Origin: Phycisphaerales bacterium
GTDB lineage: Bacteria; Planctomycetota; Phycisphaerae; Phycisphaerales; UBA1924
Direction: 5' to 3'
Assembly (NCBI GenBank): GCA_029213305.1
Contig: JARGPA010000006.1
Coordinates: forward strand, 62,001 to 126,000
Length of the DNA stretch: 64,000 nt
The position numbers and the translations under genes are program-made. Shown one piece after another: positions 4,501 to 47,153 of the stretch. How positions within the stretch are numbered: the first letter of the stretch is position 1; the number at the start of each line of letters is the position of its first letter. The notes beneath the pieces were generated by a model, which did not search any database, had not been told where the DNA came from, and was given only the letters and a program-made list of their open reading frames with translations.

Positions 4501-5691
4501 ATGACGACCGCTTCGACAACAAGTCCAGCGATCTCTGCAGATCCACTGCAGTTGATCGATGTTGACCATGTCCGCTTTTATGTAGGGAATGCTAAACAAG
4601 CTGCATATTTTTATGCTCACACCTTTGGTTTCAGGATTGATCAGATCGCAGATCTGACTACTGGATCGCGTGAAGAGGCCGACTACTTATTAACCCAGGG
4701 GAATATTCGTATCCTCCTAACTACCCCTTTGAACAAAGAGCATCCCGCAGGTGAAGAACTCAAACTCTACGGGGATGGAATCAAAGATGTTGCGCTCACA
4801 GTTGAAGATGCAGTTGCTTCATATGAAAAAGCAATCGAAAATGGTGGTGAGTCTGCTGCTCCTCCAAGAGTTCTAGAAGATGAAAAAGGCACAGTCACTG
4901 TCGCGTCGATTAAAACTTACGGCCGAGTGATTCATACATTTGTATCTCGAACCGGAGAATACGCGCATGAGAATCTCCGTTCTGGTGGGCTCTTTATGCC
5001 GACCTTCAAGAAGTTTGATTCGCCGCTGAACAAGTACAACGAAGAGAATCCGTGTGGGTTGATGTTTACGGATCATCTCGTTGGAAATGTTGAAGAAGGT
5101 AAGATGAATGAATGGGTGAAGTGGTATGAAGATGTGCTTGGATTTGCAATGTTCAAGCACTTTGATGACGCAGACATCTCGACAGAGTTCTCAGCTCTCA
5201 TGTCCAAGGTGATGGCATCAGGAAACAACCTGATTAAGATGCCGATCAATGAACCAGCTGACGGCGTCAAGAAATCACAGATTCTAGAATACCTCGAATG
5301 GCACAACATGATGCCTGGGGTTCAACACCTAGCATTTAGAACAGATGATGAACTGGCAACAGTTGCAGAGCTCCGTCGTCGTGGTGTTGACTTCTTAGAC
5401 ATGCCTGACACCTACTATGAAAATGTTTGGAATCGTGTCGACACAATGCTCAAAGAGCATGGGCACGAAATTGTGAAAGAAGATCACCAACGAGTTAAAG
5501 ACCTCGGTGTACTCGTCGATGCCGACGATGAAGGGTATTTGCTTCAACTTTTCACTAAACCGCTTCAAGATCGTCCTACATTCTTTATCGAAATTATCTG
5601 TCGTCGAGGCTCACAGAGCTTTGGTAAGGGTAACTTCAAAGCTCTCTTCGAGAGTCTTGAACTCGAGCAAGAACGAAGAGGCAATCTCTAA
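4501..5691 (+). CDS. hppD: 4-hydroxyphenylpyruvate dioxygenase
   Basis: This non-haem iron enzyme turns 4-hydroxyphenylpyruvate into homogentisate in tyrosine catabolism. Its 396 residues fold as two vicinal-oxygen-chelate halves. The three iron ligands are visible: H192 (TDHLVGN), H276 (PGVQHLAFRT) and E364 (FFIEIICR). The C-terminus carries the GKGNFKALFE segment typical of true HPPD. Hydroxymandelate synthase is a close relative and the main alternative, but the presence of hmgA at 8262-9590 supports tyrosine breakdown. The gene has its own promoter and leader and a strong intrinsic terminator directly after it, so it is a one-gene unit. Confidence 0.95.
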   Translation: MTTASTTSPAISADPLQLIDVDHVRFYVGNAKQAAYFYAHTFGFRIDQIADLTTGSREEADYLLTQGNIRILLTTPLNKEHPAGEELKLYGDGIKDVALTVEDAVASYEKAIENGGESAAPPRVLEDEKGTVTVASIKTYGRVIHTFVSRTGEYAHENLRSGGLFMPTFKKFDSPLNKYNEENPCGLMFTDHLVGNVEEGKMNEWVKWYEDVLGFAMFKHFDDADISTEFSALMSKVMASGNNLIKMPINEPADGVKKSQILEYLEWHNMMPGVQHLAFRTDDELATVAELRRRGVDFLDMPDTYYENVWNRVDTMLKEHGHEIVKEDHQRVKDLGVLVDADDEGYLLQLFTKPLQDRPTFFIEIICRRGSQSFGKGNFKALFESLELEQERRGNL

Positions 5692-8261: not shown

Positions 8262-9590
8262 TCAATCCCAAGTGTTGATCGTGCTCTGATCCGGATTTGT
8301 TTCTTCTGAGTCTGCGCCTCTGATTTCACCTGGCGCGAAATGATCCTGGCGCCAAGATTCAGGGTACTCTGCATCATCTAGATCTAAACATGCCTGAGTT
8401 GGGAACATCGGTCGGAATGTATCACACATCACGGCCATCTCGTCAGTCCATTTTTTCCCGATCGAAGCTTCGACGGTTCCTGGATGTGGTCCATGTGGGA
8501 TCCCTTGGGGATGCACCGAGACTGATCCAGAAGAAATTCCTCGACGAGCTTTGTAGTTGCCTTCGACATAGTACATGATCTCATCGGAATCGATGTTGCT
8601 GTGATTGTAAGGAACAACAATCGCATCAGGATGACTATCGAGTGCTCGAGGGCAGAACGAGCAAATCACAAAGTTGTGACCTTCAAAGGTCTGATGTATC
8701 GGTGGCGGCATATGCAACTGGCCAGTAATCGGCGCAAAGTCATGGATGTTGAAGCAATACGGGTAGTAACAACCATCCCATCCAACTACCTCAAGCGGGT
8801 GATATGGGTAGTGGTACGAATGGATTGAGTTGAGAGCTTTAATCCGAACTTCGTACTCGCCCTTTACATCGTAAGCGAGTGGATGATCCGCATCTTCAAA
8901 GGGCACTCGAAGATCACGCTCGCAGTATGGAGCATGCTCAAGGAACTGAGCAGTTTTCTTTGCGATGTATCCAGGAGGTGGCATGATGTGCGAAGCATTG
9001 CATGTTTCGAAACACACAAACTTCCCAAGTGGCATATCCGCTTTGGAGTTTCCTCCAAACTCATCATCATCGGATCCATCTGAAGGGCGCTCATCAAAGA
9101 CCATCTTATAGATCACGCCCTTGGGCATGACGATGTAGTCTTTCTTCCCAAACTTCAAGGTGCCGAACATGGTGTACAAAGTACCGGACCCGAAATGAAC
9201 GAATAGACATTCATCACCTTGACCGTTCTTGTAGTGATACTCCATCTGATCACTCGGTTGACAGAGTGACATCTCAACATCGTTATTGCCAAAGATCACA
9301 GTGCGGCCTTGAACCGGGTCGCCTTGTGCTTTAAAGTTCTGAGTTTTCACATGACGCATCCGCATCACATCTTGTTCAAGATACTCAACCTTAGTTGAGT
9401 ACAGCTTGTTCCATCCAGTTACCTGAGTGGGCGGATGAATGTGATACATAATCGAGCTTGGTCCAACGAAGCCTTCTGTGCCGAAGAGTTCTTCAGAATA
9501 GAGCGCGCCATCAGGTCTACGAAACTGAGTGTGTCGTTTCTTGGGCAACTTGCCCATCGTCATATAGTACGGCATGTCGCCGATCCTCAT
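8262..9590 (-). CDS. hmgA: Homogentisate 1,2-dioxygenase
   Basis: This cupin-fold non-haem iron enzyme opens the homogentisate ring to maleylacetoacetate, the step after HppD. The protein has about 442 residues. Strong family marks are MPYYMTMGKLPKKRHTQF at the N-terminus, GHNFVICSFCPR, and YNHSNIDSDEIMYYVEG, which carries iron ligands His and Glu, followed by PQGIPHGPHPG with another ligand His. The frame is open to a TTG at 9599; ATG at 9590 or the ATG of MPYY are also possible starts. Unlike many bacteria, hmgA is not beside hppD, and no fumarylacetoacetase or maleylacetoacetate isomerase is nearby. Confidence 0.93.
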   Translation of the reverse strand: MRIGDMPYYMTMGKLPKKRHTQFRRPDGALYSEELFGTEGFVGPSSIMYHIHPPTQVTGWNKLYSTKVEYLEQDVMRMRHVKTQNFKAQGDPVQGRTVIFGNNDVEMSLCQPSDQMEYHYKNGQGDECLFVHFGSGTLYTMFGTLKFGKKDYIVMPKGVIYKMVFDERPSDGSDDDEFGGNSKADMPLGKFVCFETCNASHIMPPPGYIAKKTAQFLEHAPYCERDLRVPFEDADHPLAYDVKGEYEVRIKALNSIHSYHYPYHPLEVVGWDGCYYPYCFNIHDFAPITGQLHMPPPIHQTFEGHNFVICSFCPRALDSHPDAIVVPYNHSNIDSDEIMYYVEGNYKARRGISSGSVSVHPQGIPHGPHPGTVEASIGKKWTDEMAVMCDTFRPMFPTQACLDLDDAEYPESWRQDHFAPGEIRGADSEETNPDQSTINTWD

Positions 9591-9599
9591 TCTTCCCAA

Positions 9600-43060: not shown

Positions 43061-45073
43061 TCAGCTTGATTTGTTGAGCCATTCCAACTCAAGTTCAGAG
43101 AGTTCTTCTTTGCATTCATCGAGCTTCTCAGTTAACGAGTTTGCTTTTTCATAATCTATCCAAACATCTGCATCACCGAGTTTGGCCTCGATGCGTTTAA
43201 TTTCAATCTCGAGTTCAGTCATTCGCTCTTCAATTTTTGCGATTGGCATCCAAGAGAATTTGTTCTTCGTAACTTGAGAGCCTTGTGTCGCAATTTGAGG
43301 CGACGGCGTTTGAGATGACTGCTTGGGTGCTGCTTGATCAGAAGATTCGGGATTGGGTCTTGGTGTTCTTGTAGATGATTCTCTTCGTGACTCTTTGGTG
43401 AGTTTCCATTCACTATAAGTTCCTGAGAATATTTCTGTATTTCCTTCTCCATCGAGCACCATGATGTGATCGCATACTGCATCGATAAGCGCTCGATCAT
43501 GAGAAATTAGTAACACAGTCCCATCATACTCTCCGGTCGTTTTTTCTCCAGTCTTTGGATTTTCGTATGTTCGAGCAATCGCAGATTCGAGTCGCTCGGC
43601 TGCTTGGATATCCAGATGGTTCGTCGGTTCATCAAGAACAAGCACATTCTTGGCACTAGCGAGTAGTGCCGCGAGAACTGCGCGTGCTTGTTCGCCGCCG
43701 GACATAACGCCGAGTGGTTTCTCTTGATCTCTCCCAGAGAACAAGAATGCTCCTGCAAGATTTCGAGCATCCTGTTCGCTCATCAATACTCGTTCTTCTG
43801 TTTCTTTTTTGATCGTATCCTGGATATGTCTGTAGACAGTTTTTTCAGGATCAAGATCATCGTGAGTCTGTGTGAAATGGCCTACAGCGAGTTTCGACCC
43901 GAGTTTGATCGTGCCTTGGTCGACGCTTTGCTCACCTAGAAGACTGCGGATGAGTGTTGTTTTTCCTGCTCCGTTTGGGCCGATGATTCCCCATCTTTGT
44001 CCTCGTTCAATATGAAGAGAAAGATCAGTAAAGAGTACTTTGTCAGTTCCATCGTGATTCTTGTACTTTTTAGAAATATCACGAGCAGCGATCACAATAT
44101 CACCTGATCGATCTGCTTTGGGGAGGTTCATCCGCATGTCATCAAGTTCAACAGGCCTCTCAATGGCACTGAGCTTGTCTCGGTCGAGCTTAGATTCTCG
44201 TCCTTTTGCTTGCTTTGCGCGTTGCCCTGCTTTGTATTGTCTGATGTATGCTTCTTCTTTTTTGAAGACTGCTTGCTGCTTTTCGTAAGCGCGAAGCATT
44301 GTCATGCGTCGTTCTATTCGTTGTTTACGAAATGCAGCATAGTTTCCTGGATAATCGACAAGTTTGCCATCTTCAACTTCGACAATGCGTGTGACTACTC
44401 TATCAAGTAAATAGCGATCATGAGAAATTAAGATAACGGCGCCGTTGTATTCATCACGGAGAAAGTCTTCGAGCCATTCTCGCCCTGCGACATCAAGGTG
44501 GTTTGTAGGTTCGTCGAGTAAAAGAATACTTGGGTTTTCTAATAGGAGTTTTGCGAGTGCAACTCTTGCGCATTGGCCACCCGATAGATCTTTTACCTTG
44601 ATTTCGAATTGAGCGTCAGTAAATCCGAGCCCATGAAGGACTTGGTCAATTTTATGACTATTTGTATATCCACCGGCGGCTTCGATTGCACGCTCGAGTC
44701 TTTCTTGCTCTTTAAGTAATCGATCGAGTTGGTCACCGCTTGCTTCGCCTAAATCGTGGTAGACGCGTTCGAGATGTTCGTGCAACTCTTCGACCATCTC
44801 AAAGGCTCGGCCTGCAGCTTCATGAAGGGTATCCTCAGGTACAAGGTTGTGTTGTTGATGTAAATAACCCGCTCGGATACCCTGTTGAATAACAACTGAT
44901 CCTGCATCATGCGGGATCATTCCTGCGAGTACCTTTAGGAGTGTGCTTTTGCCACTGCCGTTGCGGCCGACCATTCCGATCTTTTCTTTGGGTTCGAGTG
45001 AGAGTGATATCCCTTTGAGGATTTCTCGCTCGCCGAAAGATAATGCTAGGTTGGTTCCAGTTAATACAGGCAT
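43061..45073 (-). CDS. ABC-F ATPase with C-terminal coiled coil (Uup/EttA-like)
   Basis: The 670-residue protein has two ATP-binding cassettes and no membrane helices, as in translation-associated ABC-F proteins. Walker A motifs are GRNGSGKST (37-45) and GPNGAGKTT (about 373); signature motifs are LSGGQCARVALAKLLL and MSGGEQARAVLAALLA; both Walker B sites run into DEPTNHLD. The linker between cassettes is basic and helical (RAYEKQQAVFKKEEAYIRQY). A low-complexity P/S/T/Q stretch (about 560-605) leads to a coiled coil (ERMTELEIEIKRIEAKL), as in Uup. It probably acts on the ribosome; antibiotic protection is possible but not shown. Confidence 0.92.
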   Translation of the reverse strand: MPVLTGTNLALSFGEREILKGISLSLEPKEKIGMVGRNGSGKSTLLKVLAGMIPHDAGSVVIQQGIRAGYLHQQHNLVPEDTLHEAAGRAFEMVEELHEHLERVYHDLGEASGDQLDRLLKEQERLERAIEAAGGYTNSHKIDQVLHGLGFTDAQFEIKVKDLSGGQCARVALAKLLLENPSILLLDEPTNHLDVAGREWLEDFLRDEYNGAVILISHDRYLLDRVVTRIVEVEDGKLVDYPGNYAAFRKQRIERRMTMLRAYEKQQAVFKKEEAYIRQYKAGQRAKQAKGRESKLDRDKLSAIERPVELDDMRMNLPKADRSGDIVIAARDISKKYKNHDGTDKVLFTDLSLHIERGQRWGIIGPNGAGKTTLIRSLLGEQSVDQGTIKLGSKLAVGHFTQTHDDLDPEKTVYRHIQDTIKKETEERVLMSEQDARNLAGAFLFSGRDQEKPLGVMSGGEQARAVLAALLASAKNVLVLDEPTNHLDIQAAERLESAIARTYENPKTGEKTTGEYDGTVLLISHDRALIDAVCDHIMVLDGEGNTEIFSGTYSEWKLTKESRRESSTRTPRPNPESSDQAAPKQSSQTPSPQIATQGSQVTKNKFSWMPIAKIEERMTELEIEIKRIEAKLGDADVWIDYEKANSLTEKLDECKEELSELELEWLNKSS

Positions 45074-45112: not shown

Positions 45113-46126
45113 TCATGATTGCCCGAAGAAGTTGCGATGATGATGAAGAATTTCATTGATCATCATCTCATCGGGTCGTTCATCCCATTGATCGATCTGA
45201 AAACATCCACCCAAGATTAATGCATCTTTCCGTGGGAACATGTATTTGTACCCATCATGGACGCAATACCCAAGATTCTGGGGTTTCATATGAACCAGAA
45301 CCCCTCGTGCAGAATATAGATTTTGATCATTGAAAATCTGTTGAGATCCTAGGGCAAGACAGTTTACAAGAACTTCTTGTTCAAGTTTGAGAACATCATC
45401 AATGTTCAGGAACTCTTGAGTATGGAACTCGCCACCAAGTTGACGGGCTTCCGATTCAAGTTCTTGAAGGAAGATGTGCGTATGAATGTAGTCTGTCTGG
45501 AACACGCGTCCAGGTTCTGCGTCACATTGAAATGGGAAGGAGTTTATATCAACGGGGGGTTGAATGAGATCATGTTCGAATAGTTCTCCGAATAATCCTT
45601 CTTCAGTTGAGGAGTTTTCCGGTTCATAGATTGGGAGTTCTTCGATTCCAAACCTTTTTCTATCGATCGTTTTAAATCCATGGAGAGATCGTTTTAGGAT
45701 TTTGATTTTTTGTTGGATCGCCAAATCACTCGTCCCGAATTCGATACCAACTGGAAGCCAAAGAGCGCCTGCAAGGATACTTGTTGATTTGGATGTTTCA
45801 AGATGTGAATAGAGCTTGACTTGATAGCCTCTTTGAAGAAGCTCAAGTGCAGTTGTTAACCCAACGACACCAGTGCCAAGGACAGCAATCGTTTGTTGGG
45901 TCGAAGTTGTCTTTTCGACCAGATCAGCAGCAATTTCAGCAGTACCAAACGAAATAGTGACGCCGCATCCGCCGTGGCCGTAGTTGTGAATAATGGTTTT
46001 CGAGTGAGTTTGTTCGACTTCGATTCTCAACCCGCCATGTCGGCATGGTCTGAGCCCACACACCGTTTCAATGATGTTGTGATCCCCAAGATCAGGAGAC
46101 GGCATTTTGTACTTCAAGGTCTTCAT
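45113..46126 (-). CDS. D-amino-acid-oxidase-like FAD enzyme with circularly permuted order
   Basis: All parts of the D-amino-acid oxidase fold seem present but in another order. Residues 18-70 (VCGLRPCRHGGLRIEVEQ, TIIHNYGHGGCGVTISFG) correspond to the C-terminal end of ordinary DAAO, including the substrate-binding arginine. The FAD-binding loop GTGVVGLTTALEL comes only at about residue 84. The chain ends with YKYMFPRKDALILGGCFQ and the following helix, which in ordinary DAAO lies just before the GxRPxR segment. The reaction, oxidative deamination of a D-amino acid, is inferred. The cofactor is FAD; the substrate is unknown. The gene is monocistronic and divergent from panB. Confidence 0.75.
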   Translation of the reverse strand: MKTLKYKMPSPDLGDHNIIETVCGLRPCRHGGLRIEVEQTHSKTIIHNYGHGGCGVTISFGTAEIAADLVEKTTSTQQTIAVLGTGVVGLTTALELLQRGYQVKLYSHLETSKSTSILAGALWLPVGIEFGTSDLAIQQKIKILKRSLHGFKTIDRKRFGIEELPIYEPENSSTEEGLFGELFEHDLIQPPVDINSFPFQCDAEPGRVFQTDYIHTHIFLQELESEARQLGGEFHTQEFLNIDDVLKLEQEVLVNCLALGSQQIFNDQNLYSARGVLVHMKPQNLGYCVHDGYKYMFPRKDALILGGCFQIDQWDERPDEMMINEILHHHRNFFGQS

Positions 46127-46220
46127 TGATCTATTCCAAGTAAACCCTAGCCTTCTCGTTGATTATTTACAGTAGAACAAGCCAAATTCGAGGAATTGCA
46201 TACATCACACATGGATGCCC

Positions 46221-46226
46221 TATAAT
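46221..46226 (+). promoter_or_regulatory. -10 box of panB, leaderless layout
   Basis: A perfect TATAAT is followed by 6 bases and an in-frame GTG at 46233. A possible -35 (TTGCAT, 46196-46201) has a long 19-base spacer. If used, this promoter makes the upstream in-frame ATG at 46215 untranslatable. Confidence 0.5.
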
Positions 46227-46232
46227 CCTTGC

Positions 46233-47153
46233 GTGAGCATATCTCCCACAAATCCTGCAACGAACTGTATTTCTGAACCAAACCTTCAAGATGCAGTCAC
46301 ACTCAAGACTTTGATTCGCATGAAACGAAAGGGTGAGCCATTTGCCTGTCTCGCGTGCTACGACGCGACGACGGCCCGTTGGTTATCCCGTGGAGGCGTT
46401 CATGTGCTCCTCGCAGGCGATTCCGCTGCTCAAGTTGTCTTAGGACATGAGAGTACTGTGCATATGCCGATTGATTTCGCGATTCAGATCACGGCTGCCC
46501 TCAAACGAGGCGCGCCTCGCTCATTGATCATGGCGGATATGCCATTTATGAGCTATCACACTTCTGTAGAATCAGCGATGATCAATGCTTCTCGTTTCAT
46601 GATCGAGGGGAATGCAGATGTCGTCAAGCTTGAAACAGACGAGACGTTTGCACCGCTTGTTGATCGTCTTACACGAGCAGGTGTTCCCGTGTGCGCTCAT
46701 ATCGGATGTAAACCACAAACGAGTTCAGTGACCGGTGGCCCTGTTGCGGCGGGAAGAACTGCTGATGGGCTCGAACAAGTTGTGCGTGATGCGGTTGCGC
46801 TCGAGCAAGCAGGAGCAGTGATTTTATTACTCGAAGCAGTGCCTGCAGAAGTAACGAAAGCGGTTATGAATCAAGTGAAAGTACCTGTAATCGGAATCGG
46901 AGCGGGTACTTCTTGCGATGGTCAGATTTTGGTTGTCAATGACTTGCTTGGCATGACAGATGTGCCGCCTCGATTCGCGGAACCGGTTGACATCTTCGGT
47001 CAACGCATTCAAGAGGCCGGACAACTTTGGGTAGATCGAGTTCGAATGGGAACGATCGGTGGGCAAGCTTATTCAATGCGAGCAGGTGAAAAAGAGAAGC
47101 TCAATCAAAAAACTAAGGGTTCTATAAATAACTCCGATCCATTACACTCTTAA
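46233..47153 (+). CDS. panB: 3-methyl-2-oxobutanoate hydroxymethyltransferase
   Basis: PanB adds a hydroxymethyl group from methylene-tetrahydrofolate to ketoisovalerate, the first committed step of pantothenate (coenzyme A) synthesis. It is a TIM-barrel enzyme. Marks are MKRKGEPFACLACYDATTARW, LLAGDSAAQVVLGHEST with the Mg-binding aspartate, MADMPFMSY, VKLETDET, AHIGCKPQTS and IGIGAGTSCDGQILVVNDLLG. I choose the GTG at 46233 (306 residues), which follows a perfect -10 box by 6 bases; the in-frame ATG at 46215 would be upstream of the transcription start. The C-terminal 25 residues are a low-complexity extension. Confidence 0.93.
   Translation: MSISPTNPATNCISEPNLQDAVTLKTLIRMKRKGEPFACLACYDATTARWLSRGGVHVLLAGDSAAQVVLGHESTVHMPIDFAIQITAALKRGAPRSLIMADMPFMSYHTSVESAMINASRFMIEGNADVVKLETDETFAPLVDRLTRAGVPVCAHIGCKPQTSSVTGGPVAAGRTADGLEQVVRDAVALEQAGAVILLLEAVPAEVTKAVMNQVKVPVIGIGAGTSCDGQILVVNDLLGMTDVPPRFAEPVDIFGQRIQEAGQLWVDRVRMGTIGGQAYSMRAGEKEKLNQKTKGSINNSDPLHS

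Follow-up and report, generated by a model that had tools for sequence, protein, structure and literature searches.

The gene at positions 45113..46126 on the minus strand of the window, the 64-kb stretch of Phycisphaerales DNA analyzed here, is an intact open reading frame that starts with ATG and encodes 337 amino acids followed by a stop codon. Alignments and rotation tests confirm that its product is a circularly permuted homologue of D-amino-acid oxidase (DAAO); judged from these comparisons, the last fifth of DAAO is the first fifth of the window chain, the moved segment is relocated and not missing, and the core is that of DAAO. The gene very probably encodes a functional enzyme from a branch of the DAAO family that is circularly permuted in nature, its fold and catalysis being predicted from sequence. 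DAAO serves both as a model flavoenzyme and as a biocatalyst in industry; a natural permutant in many phyla would show that the FAD-binding fold tolerates new termini, and natural permutants would be ready-made templates for engineering.

Segment Order and Homologues

The segment that has moved comprises residues 10–73 (45908..46099, minus strand; coordinates derived from the residue numbers) and, in the alignment with pig DAAO (1dao), matches the C-terminal end of the canonical enzyme. It contains GLRPCR (residues 24–29; 46040..46057, minus strand), whose Arg26 aligns with Arg283 of pig DAAO, and HNYGHGGCG (residues 47–55; 45962..45988, minus strand), within which YGHGGxG occupies residues 49–55. 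The first-pass annotation had assigned this pair of motifs to residues 24–53; both are indeed present near the N terminus, but their actual spans are those given here. The new junction between the old C terminus and the old N terminus lies at about residues 74–78 (45893..45907, minus strand), the best cut in the rotation scan falling after residue 75, and residues 79–337 (45116..45892, minus strand) are what was formerly the N-terminal and central part, beginning with the FAD-binding strand and ending at the new C terminus. Within this part, GTGVVGL, which contains the FAD-binding GxGxxG, is found at residues 84–90 (45857..45877, minus strand), where it had been placed approximately (about residue 84), and LGGCFQ (residues 305–310; 45197..45214, minus strand) is the final conserved stretch ahead of the new C-terminal part. 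The chain ends 27 residues past LGGCFQ.

In phmmer searches of the PDB, window residues 80–317 align with residues 3–250 of pig DAAO and residues 10–73 with pig residues 267–333; for the D-aspartate oxidase 6rkf, window residues 79–328 match chain residues 14–265, and residues 15–74 match 277–338. The Pfam DAO profile aligns its positions 2–297 (of 353) with residues 80–334 of the window protein (E 3.5e-27), and in a search of the own genome, on the minus strand, positions 298–353 matched at C2:107920-108096 and positions 2–300 at C2:107116-107889. The two Pfam pieces are thus swapped in order, the end of the profile (about residues 11–69) being upstream of its beginning. When a profile of the permuted family was used to search the PDB, 79 sequences matched; the 15 best were all named DAAO or D-aspartate oxidase and each matched in two stretches, and among the 60 of the 79 that were listed, none was spanned by the profile in one stretch.

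A profile built from 61 canonical-order bacterial proteins served to score the window protein in each of its 337 rotations. In the natural order, the best single domain scored 145.9 bits over profile positions 3–252 of 320, and the best rotation, cut after residue 75, scored 230.3 bits over positions 3–317 (315 of 320 covered). Cuts after residues 73–77 all gave at least 229.5 bits and the score drops on either side, which places the junction within a few residues. The near-complete domain obtained after rotation shows a full rotation with nothing large lost, as opposed to a truncation. A gain on rotation was also seen with the canonical profile for 119 of 121 permuted proteins (median 71.5 bits, minimum −0.5) and with a permuted profile for all 61 canonical proteins (median 73.3 bits, minimum 50.3). 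The two permuted proteins that gain nothing, L185 and L186 (−0.2 and −0.5 bits), have 37–38 residues past the last matched segment, and we attribute the result to the interruption of the bridged match by these extra residues. In the window protein, both parts of DAAO occur once, in swapped order, and form one near-full-length match after rotation; the canonical order, with the FAD strand first and GxRPxR and YGHGGxG last, is not found in it. The first-pass annotation had proposed a circular permutation rather than a truncation, and the PDB alignments, the Pfam DAO pieces, and the rotation scan support that proposal.

It had also called for a search for homologues with the same order, which yielded 121 distinct permuted proteins, with ten named phyla among the best 80 loci of a genome-contig scan. 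In the taxonomic order to which the window belongs, 43 of 201 genomes match the window protein at E 0.001, and a check of the open reading frames found the permuted arrangement in 24 of the 201 (own genome included), one of which, G189, has a partial gene. In a draw from the phylum, 24 of 392 genomes match and the permuted order is present in 9 of the 392, four of these nine being also in the 201-genome set. When the genome contigs were scanned with only the window protein as query, no relative was confirmed. With A1, an alignment of 27 permuted proteins from which L010 (early stop) and L033 (partial) were left out, the scan gave at least 592 stretches matching the pattern, at least 582 of them confirmed, and the best 80 were kept. 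All 80 kept loci (the best 80 of at least 582) have the permuted order, but this is not an estimate of prevalence because the scan started from permuted sequences, retained the top-scoring loci, and demanded a match to the pattern H[NHQ]YGHGGxG; the conservation of HNYGHGG among the scan loci is likewise partly imposed by their selection with that pattern. A named phylum is recorded for 73 of the 77 non-identical proteins of the best-80 loci: Pseudomonadota (34), Acidobacteriota (12), Bacteroidota (7), Gemmatimonadota (7), Planctomycetota (5), Verrucomicrobiota (3), Actinomycetota (2), and Cyanobacteriota, Myxococcota, and Candidatus Zixiibacteriota (1 each). The classification, which left out partial matches and identical proteins (L064, L065, and L073 among the best-80 loci), covers 182 distinct proteins, 121 permuted and 61 canonical. 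In further phylum draws, each centered on a permuted-bearing genome, the permuted order was found in 15 of 299 genomes of Pseudomonadota (center included; seven candidates scored per genome). In Actinomycetota, 19 of 198 genomes match at E 1e-12, the center being permuted and the 18 others canonical; in Bacteroidota, 28 of 198 match, three of them permuted (center included) and 24 of the other 25 canonical, with L257 unclassified. The canonical order is therefore commoner in the draws from the last two phyla.

A second, normal C-terminal copy in the homologues, which the first-pass annotation had set against a permutation, was found neither in the classified frames nor in the window nor in the own genome. 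No open frame behind the 182 distinct classified proteins has two matches to the moved-segment profile, and a six-frame scan of the 64-kb window with that profile found no other copy. In the own genome, profile A1 matched the gene in full and gave no second copy of the moved segment; its three further matches score at most 24.1 bits and all lie around the FAD-strand region. Each of 21 named genomes picked from the genome-scan loci has one near-full-length permuted match, and none of these 21 has a canonical-order pair at E 1e-6; the 12 remaining matches at this threshold, in 11 of the genomes, extend over at most about 80 profile positions around the FAD strand. As a separate observation, G110, a genome from the window's order, has two permuted-type matches about 5.4 kb apart (C24:18542-19504 and C24:24894-25844).

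These results bear on two other explanations of the segment order. That the protein is a truncated DAAO core with an unrelated N-terminal extension, resembling the C-terminal motif by chance, is suggested by the odd order and by nothing else that was found, and is extremely improbable: in the six-frame scan, 107.4 bits are obtained for the N-terminal segment (with a profile that includes the window protein itself) as against 7.3 bits for the next-best stretch in the window, it aligns with the matching end of solved DAAOs and of Pfam DAO, and rotation yields one near-complete domain. This reading is refuted by the PDB and Pfam alignments together with the rotation scan. An artifact, whether a misassembly, a frameshift, or a rearranged pseudogene in one draft genome, might be considered for a 38-contig assembly of 92.3% completeness, but it is no easier to credit: the reading frame in the window is intact, and the same order recurs in the 121 distinct proteins and ten named phyla described above, including a record titled complete genome, that of Sphingomonas sp. 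7/4-4 (L090). The homologues with the same order refute it, and a natural permutation is the reading adopted below.

Active Site and Probable Function

Conservation was counted by column in 118 permuted proteins (the divergent L030, L032, and L232 being left out) and 61 canonical proteins. The three glycines of GxGxxG (window residues 84–89) are invariant in both sets, and each fixed position of YGHGGxG is kept in at least 116 of the 118 permuted proteins. The equivalent of Arg26 is present in all 118 permuted and in 57 of the 61 canonical proteins; its pig counterpart, Arg283, we take to be the arginine that binds the substrate carboxylate. Tyr295 is the counterpart of pig Tyr228, presumably the active-site tyrosine; a Tyr is found at this position in 98 of the 118 permuted and in 59 of the 61 canonical proteins. 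Arg299 occurs in all 118 permuted proteins and is not specific to them, since it is also present in 49 of the 61 canonical ones; a residue that does characterize the permuted set is Tyr287 (113 of 118). The loop before the active-site Tyr has 10 residues in the window protein as compared with 18 in the pig enzyme and 12–16 in four canonical bacterial examples. Because the active-site Arg and Tyr are kept, the window protein is likeliest to be an FAD-dependent D-amino-acid oxidase or dehydrogenase.

In the mechanism that these alignments suggest, the old C-terminal segment, with GxRPxR, HNYGHGG, and the part that follows, would open the chain, a short linker would lead from it into the old N-terminal FAD-binding strand, and the chain would stop where the moved segment used to start. 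FAD would be held by GxGxxG and YGHGGxG within a predicted DAAO fold and active site, and the carboxylate of the substrate would be gripped by Arg26 (pig Arg283) and Tyr295 (pig Tyr228). The D-amino acid would then be oxidized to an imino acid, which would hydrolyze to a keto acid and ammonia, and the electrons would pass to oxygen, giving H2O2, or to a quinone. A catalase is present in the own genome, which is compatible with H2O2 production.

The main alternative accepts the permutation and assigns the protein to another substrate, as a flavoenzyme acting on glycine, sarcosine, an N-substituted amino acid, or another amine, or as a dehydrogenase of the respiratory chain. The residues that are kept have general roles in carboxylate and FAD binding, and the short loop before the active-site Tyr and the Tyr287 typical of the permuted set would also fit a different substrate. 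The best NCBIfam match of the window protein is to the glycine oxidase ThiO, at 60.7 of 250.8 bits, far below the cut-off, with no other model reaching its own. According to PMC9844085, some glycine oxidases have both GxRPxR and YGHGGxG, and the substrate can therefore not be read from the two motifs by themselves. For a dehydrogenase, an envelope-bound enzyme could conceivably hand electrons to quinone. Against this alternative, the profile search of the PDB gave E values of 5.6e-53 to 1.3e-39 for 17 DAAO and D-aspartate oxidase sequences and of 8.9e-13 or weaker for glycine oxidases, and the equivalents of both Arg283 and Tyr228 are kept. We regard a different substrate or a respiratory role as unlikely, yet deserving of real weight, and an enzyme acting on D-amino acids as the preferred assignment.

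Tat-like Signals, Origin, and Genomic Context

Tat-like signals were sought with a home-made pattern, rather than a trained predictor, that requires a twin-Arg motif and then a hydrophobic stretch upstream of the first conserved segment. The pattern occurs in 92 of the 121 permuted proteins, for which shuffled residues gave a mean of 5.57 and a maximum of 10, and in 2 of the 61 canonical proteins (shuffled mean 0.45, maximum 3); the comparison is uneven because the upstream open frames of the canonical proteins are shorter (median 18 residues versus 63), although length is taken into account by the shuffles. Arginine-rich frames, perhaps untranslated, seem to account for the two canonical cases. 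With a start codon required, the counts become 90 of 121 and 1 of 61, and in a further five permuted proteins a hydrophobic stretch is present but the twin-Arg motif is not. A lipobox-like Cys pattern is present in 61 of the 92 signal-bearing permuted proteins, and TatC is present in the own genome. Such signals, often with a lipobox-like Cys, suggest that many of the relatives work outside the cytoplasm, where they would probably act in a folded and FAD-loaded state. By the same pattern, the signal is absent from the window protein and, with the start-codon filter, from all 17 proteins of its clade, which was delimited for this analysis as one side of a branch with SH-aLRT 99; under a less strict pattern, two of the 17 (L019 and L069) are flagged. 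The enzymes of this clade are probably cytosolic. Neither the signals of the relatives nor how widespread the family is had been noticed in the first-pass annotation.

The permutation and export may have arisen together, a proposal that we hold tentatively and at somewhat less than even odds of being correct. Moving the buried FAD-binding strand off the N terminus would have let the new N terminus carry a Tat signal and a lipid anchor, giving a family of D-amino-acid oxidases of the bacterial cell envelope that might act, for example, on D-amino acids from peptidoglycan turnover; the Phycisphaerales clade of the window would later have lost the signal, returning the enzyme to the cytosol. With one or two permutation events in all, the association between permutation and export does not amount to a repeated correlation. 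The association does offer a testable case for why a permutation is kept, namely for export and anchoring.

A quick maximum-likelihood tree of the 182 proteins, with the permuted ones rotated, splits the two orders by one change (SH-aLRT 98). More careful trees were built from 38 of the 121 permuted and at most 40 of the 61 canonical proteins, a partly random draw. One of them, with 86 rows, combined 38 permuted and 40 canonical proteins with pig DAAO, one D-aspartate oxidase, and six further members of the DAO superfamily; in it, 35 of the 38 permuted rows form one clade (99/86), and both animal-type enzymes fall within a group of 32 canonical rows (98/95). The three divergent permuted proteins, L030, L032, and L232, stand apart from the main permuted clade, at a point where long branches meet; their moved segments are closer to permuted than to canonical ones. 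A careful tree of 78 rows, without the outgroup and without the long rows L219 and L037, needs two order changes; 34% of 200 bootstrap trees from this set need one, and one clade is not rejected by the AU test (p 0.383). A single origin of the permutation is the simplest reading of these sequences, although it is not proven because the subset trees place the three divergent proteins apart, and a second, independent permutation in these three is possible. Rooting by the six DAO-superfamily outgroups was of no help: their end branches are long (2.2–4.7 changes per column), and no single branch sets them off from the rest. We regard the permuted order as derived, by parsimony on an unrooted tree, because L001, a different DAO protein encoded in the own genome, matches Pfam DAO positions 1–350 in canonical order and because, in the six outgroup proteins, the glycine motif falls no later than residue 60 of the open frame.

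The gene is flanked by a divergent panB gene (ketopantoate hydroxymethyltransferase; 46215..47153, plus strand), found nearby in 14 relatives (L010–L014, L016, L018, L019, L020, L069–L071, L085, and L087), and by a co-directional gene for an ABC-F ATPase (43061..45073, minus strand), directly downstream after a 39-bp gap and adjacent also in nine relatives (L010–L014, L016, and L069–L071). Among 20 Pfam-annotated neighbors from other phyla or classes, none is conserved across phyla, and the context therefore gives no indication of the substrate; an amino-acid permease (L114) and an M20 peptidase (L105) are single cases. A first clustering of neighbors, whose largest cluster was read as frames antisense to the gene, was discarded. 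ABC-F-like matches are also found near canonical-order DAAO in four actinobacterial loci (L205, L209, L210, and L216), which may be coincidence. In Ekhidna lutea (L119 5083-6207), the permuted DAAO is followed by a gene of the glyoxalase superfamily with a weak match to the N-terminal part of 4-hydroxyphenylpyruvate dioxygenase. The window itself has a gene for that dioxygenase, above the cut-off, at 4501-5691, about 39 kb from the permuted DAAO, and a distant homogentisate-dioxygenase-like gene, below the cut-off, at 8262-9599, about 36 kb away. A link of the permuted DAAO to aromatic D-amino acids is no more than speculation.

Relation to Known Systems

PMC9844085, a 2022 paper on the discovery of bacterial DAAOs, reports that just over 10 bacterial DAAO genes had been identified, all in “Acinetobacteria” (probably Actinobacteria), and that GxRPxR and YGHGGxG are conserved in bacterial DAAOs. 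A permuted family would alter this view of bacterial DAAO as known from about ten actinobacterial genes. Words beginning with “permut” do not occur in PMC9844085 or in a 2015 survey (PMC4699246), and no description of a permuted DAAO was found in the open-licence literature of PubMed Central; provisionally, it is undescribed so far. In NCBIfam, 78 members of the family, including the window protein, gave weak matches, the best with E 2.6e-20, to ThiO. Seven plasmid records contain a relative, one of them as a core-only match; five are labeled FAD-dependent oxidoreductase and two have no listed gene. The five labels fit the suggestion of the first-pass annotation that relatives may exist and be under-described.

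The window protein shares with the DAAO/D-aspartate oxidase family (EC 1.4.3.3/1.4.3.1; Pfam DAO, PF01266) the GxGxxG, GxRPxR, and YGHGGxG motifs, the active-site Arg and Tyr, and a similar length, but it differs in its permuted order, many of its permuted relatives have a Tat-like signal, and its loop before the active-site Tyr is shorter than that of the pig enzyme. Because the order is swapped, it is classified as belonging to a permuted branch that probably works like DAAO and not as an ordinary member. The glycine oxidase ThiO and the D-amino acid dehydrogenase of NCBIfam are of the same DAO superfamily, but the window protein matches them far below the curated cut-offs, and glycine oxidases came far behind DAAO when the PDB was searched with the profile. 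The canonical bacterial DAAOs, as described in PMC9844085, share GxRPxR and YGHGGxG with the permuted proteins, whereas the permuted loci span ten named phyla. PMC11334425 describes circularly permuted FMN-bind proteins, which are likewise a predicted case of natural circular permutation in bacterial flavoproteins, but these have a different flavin-binding domain and are not GxGxxG FAD oxidases.
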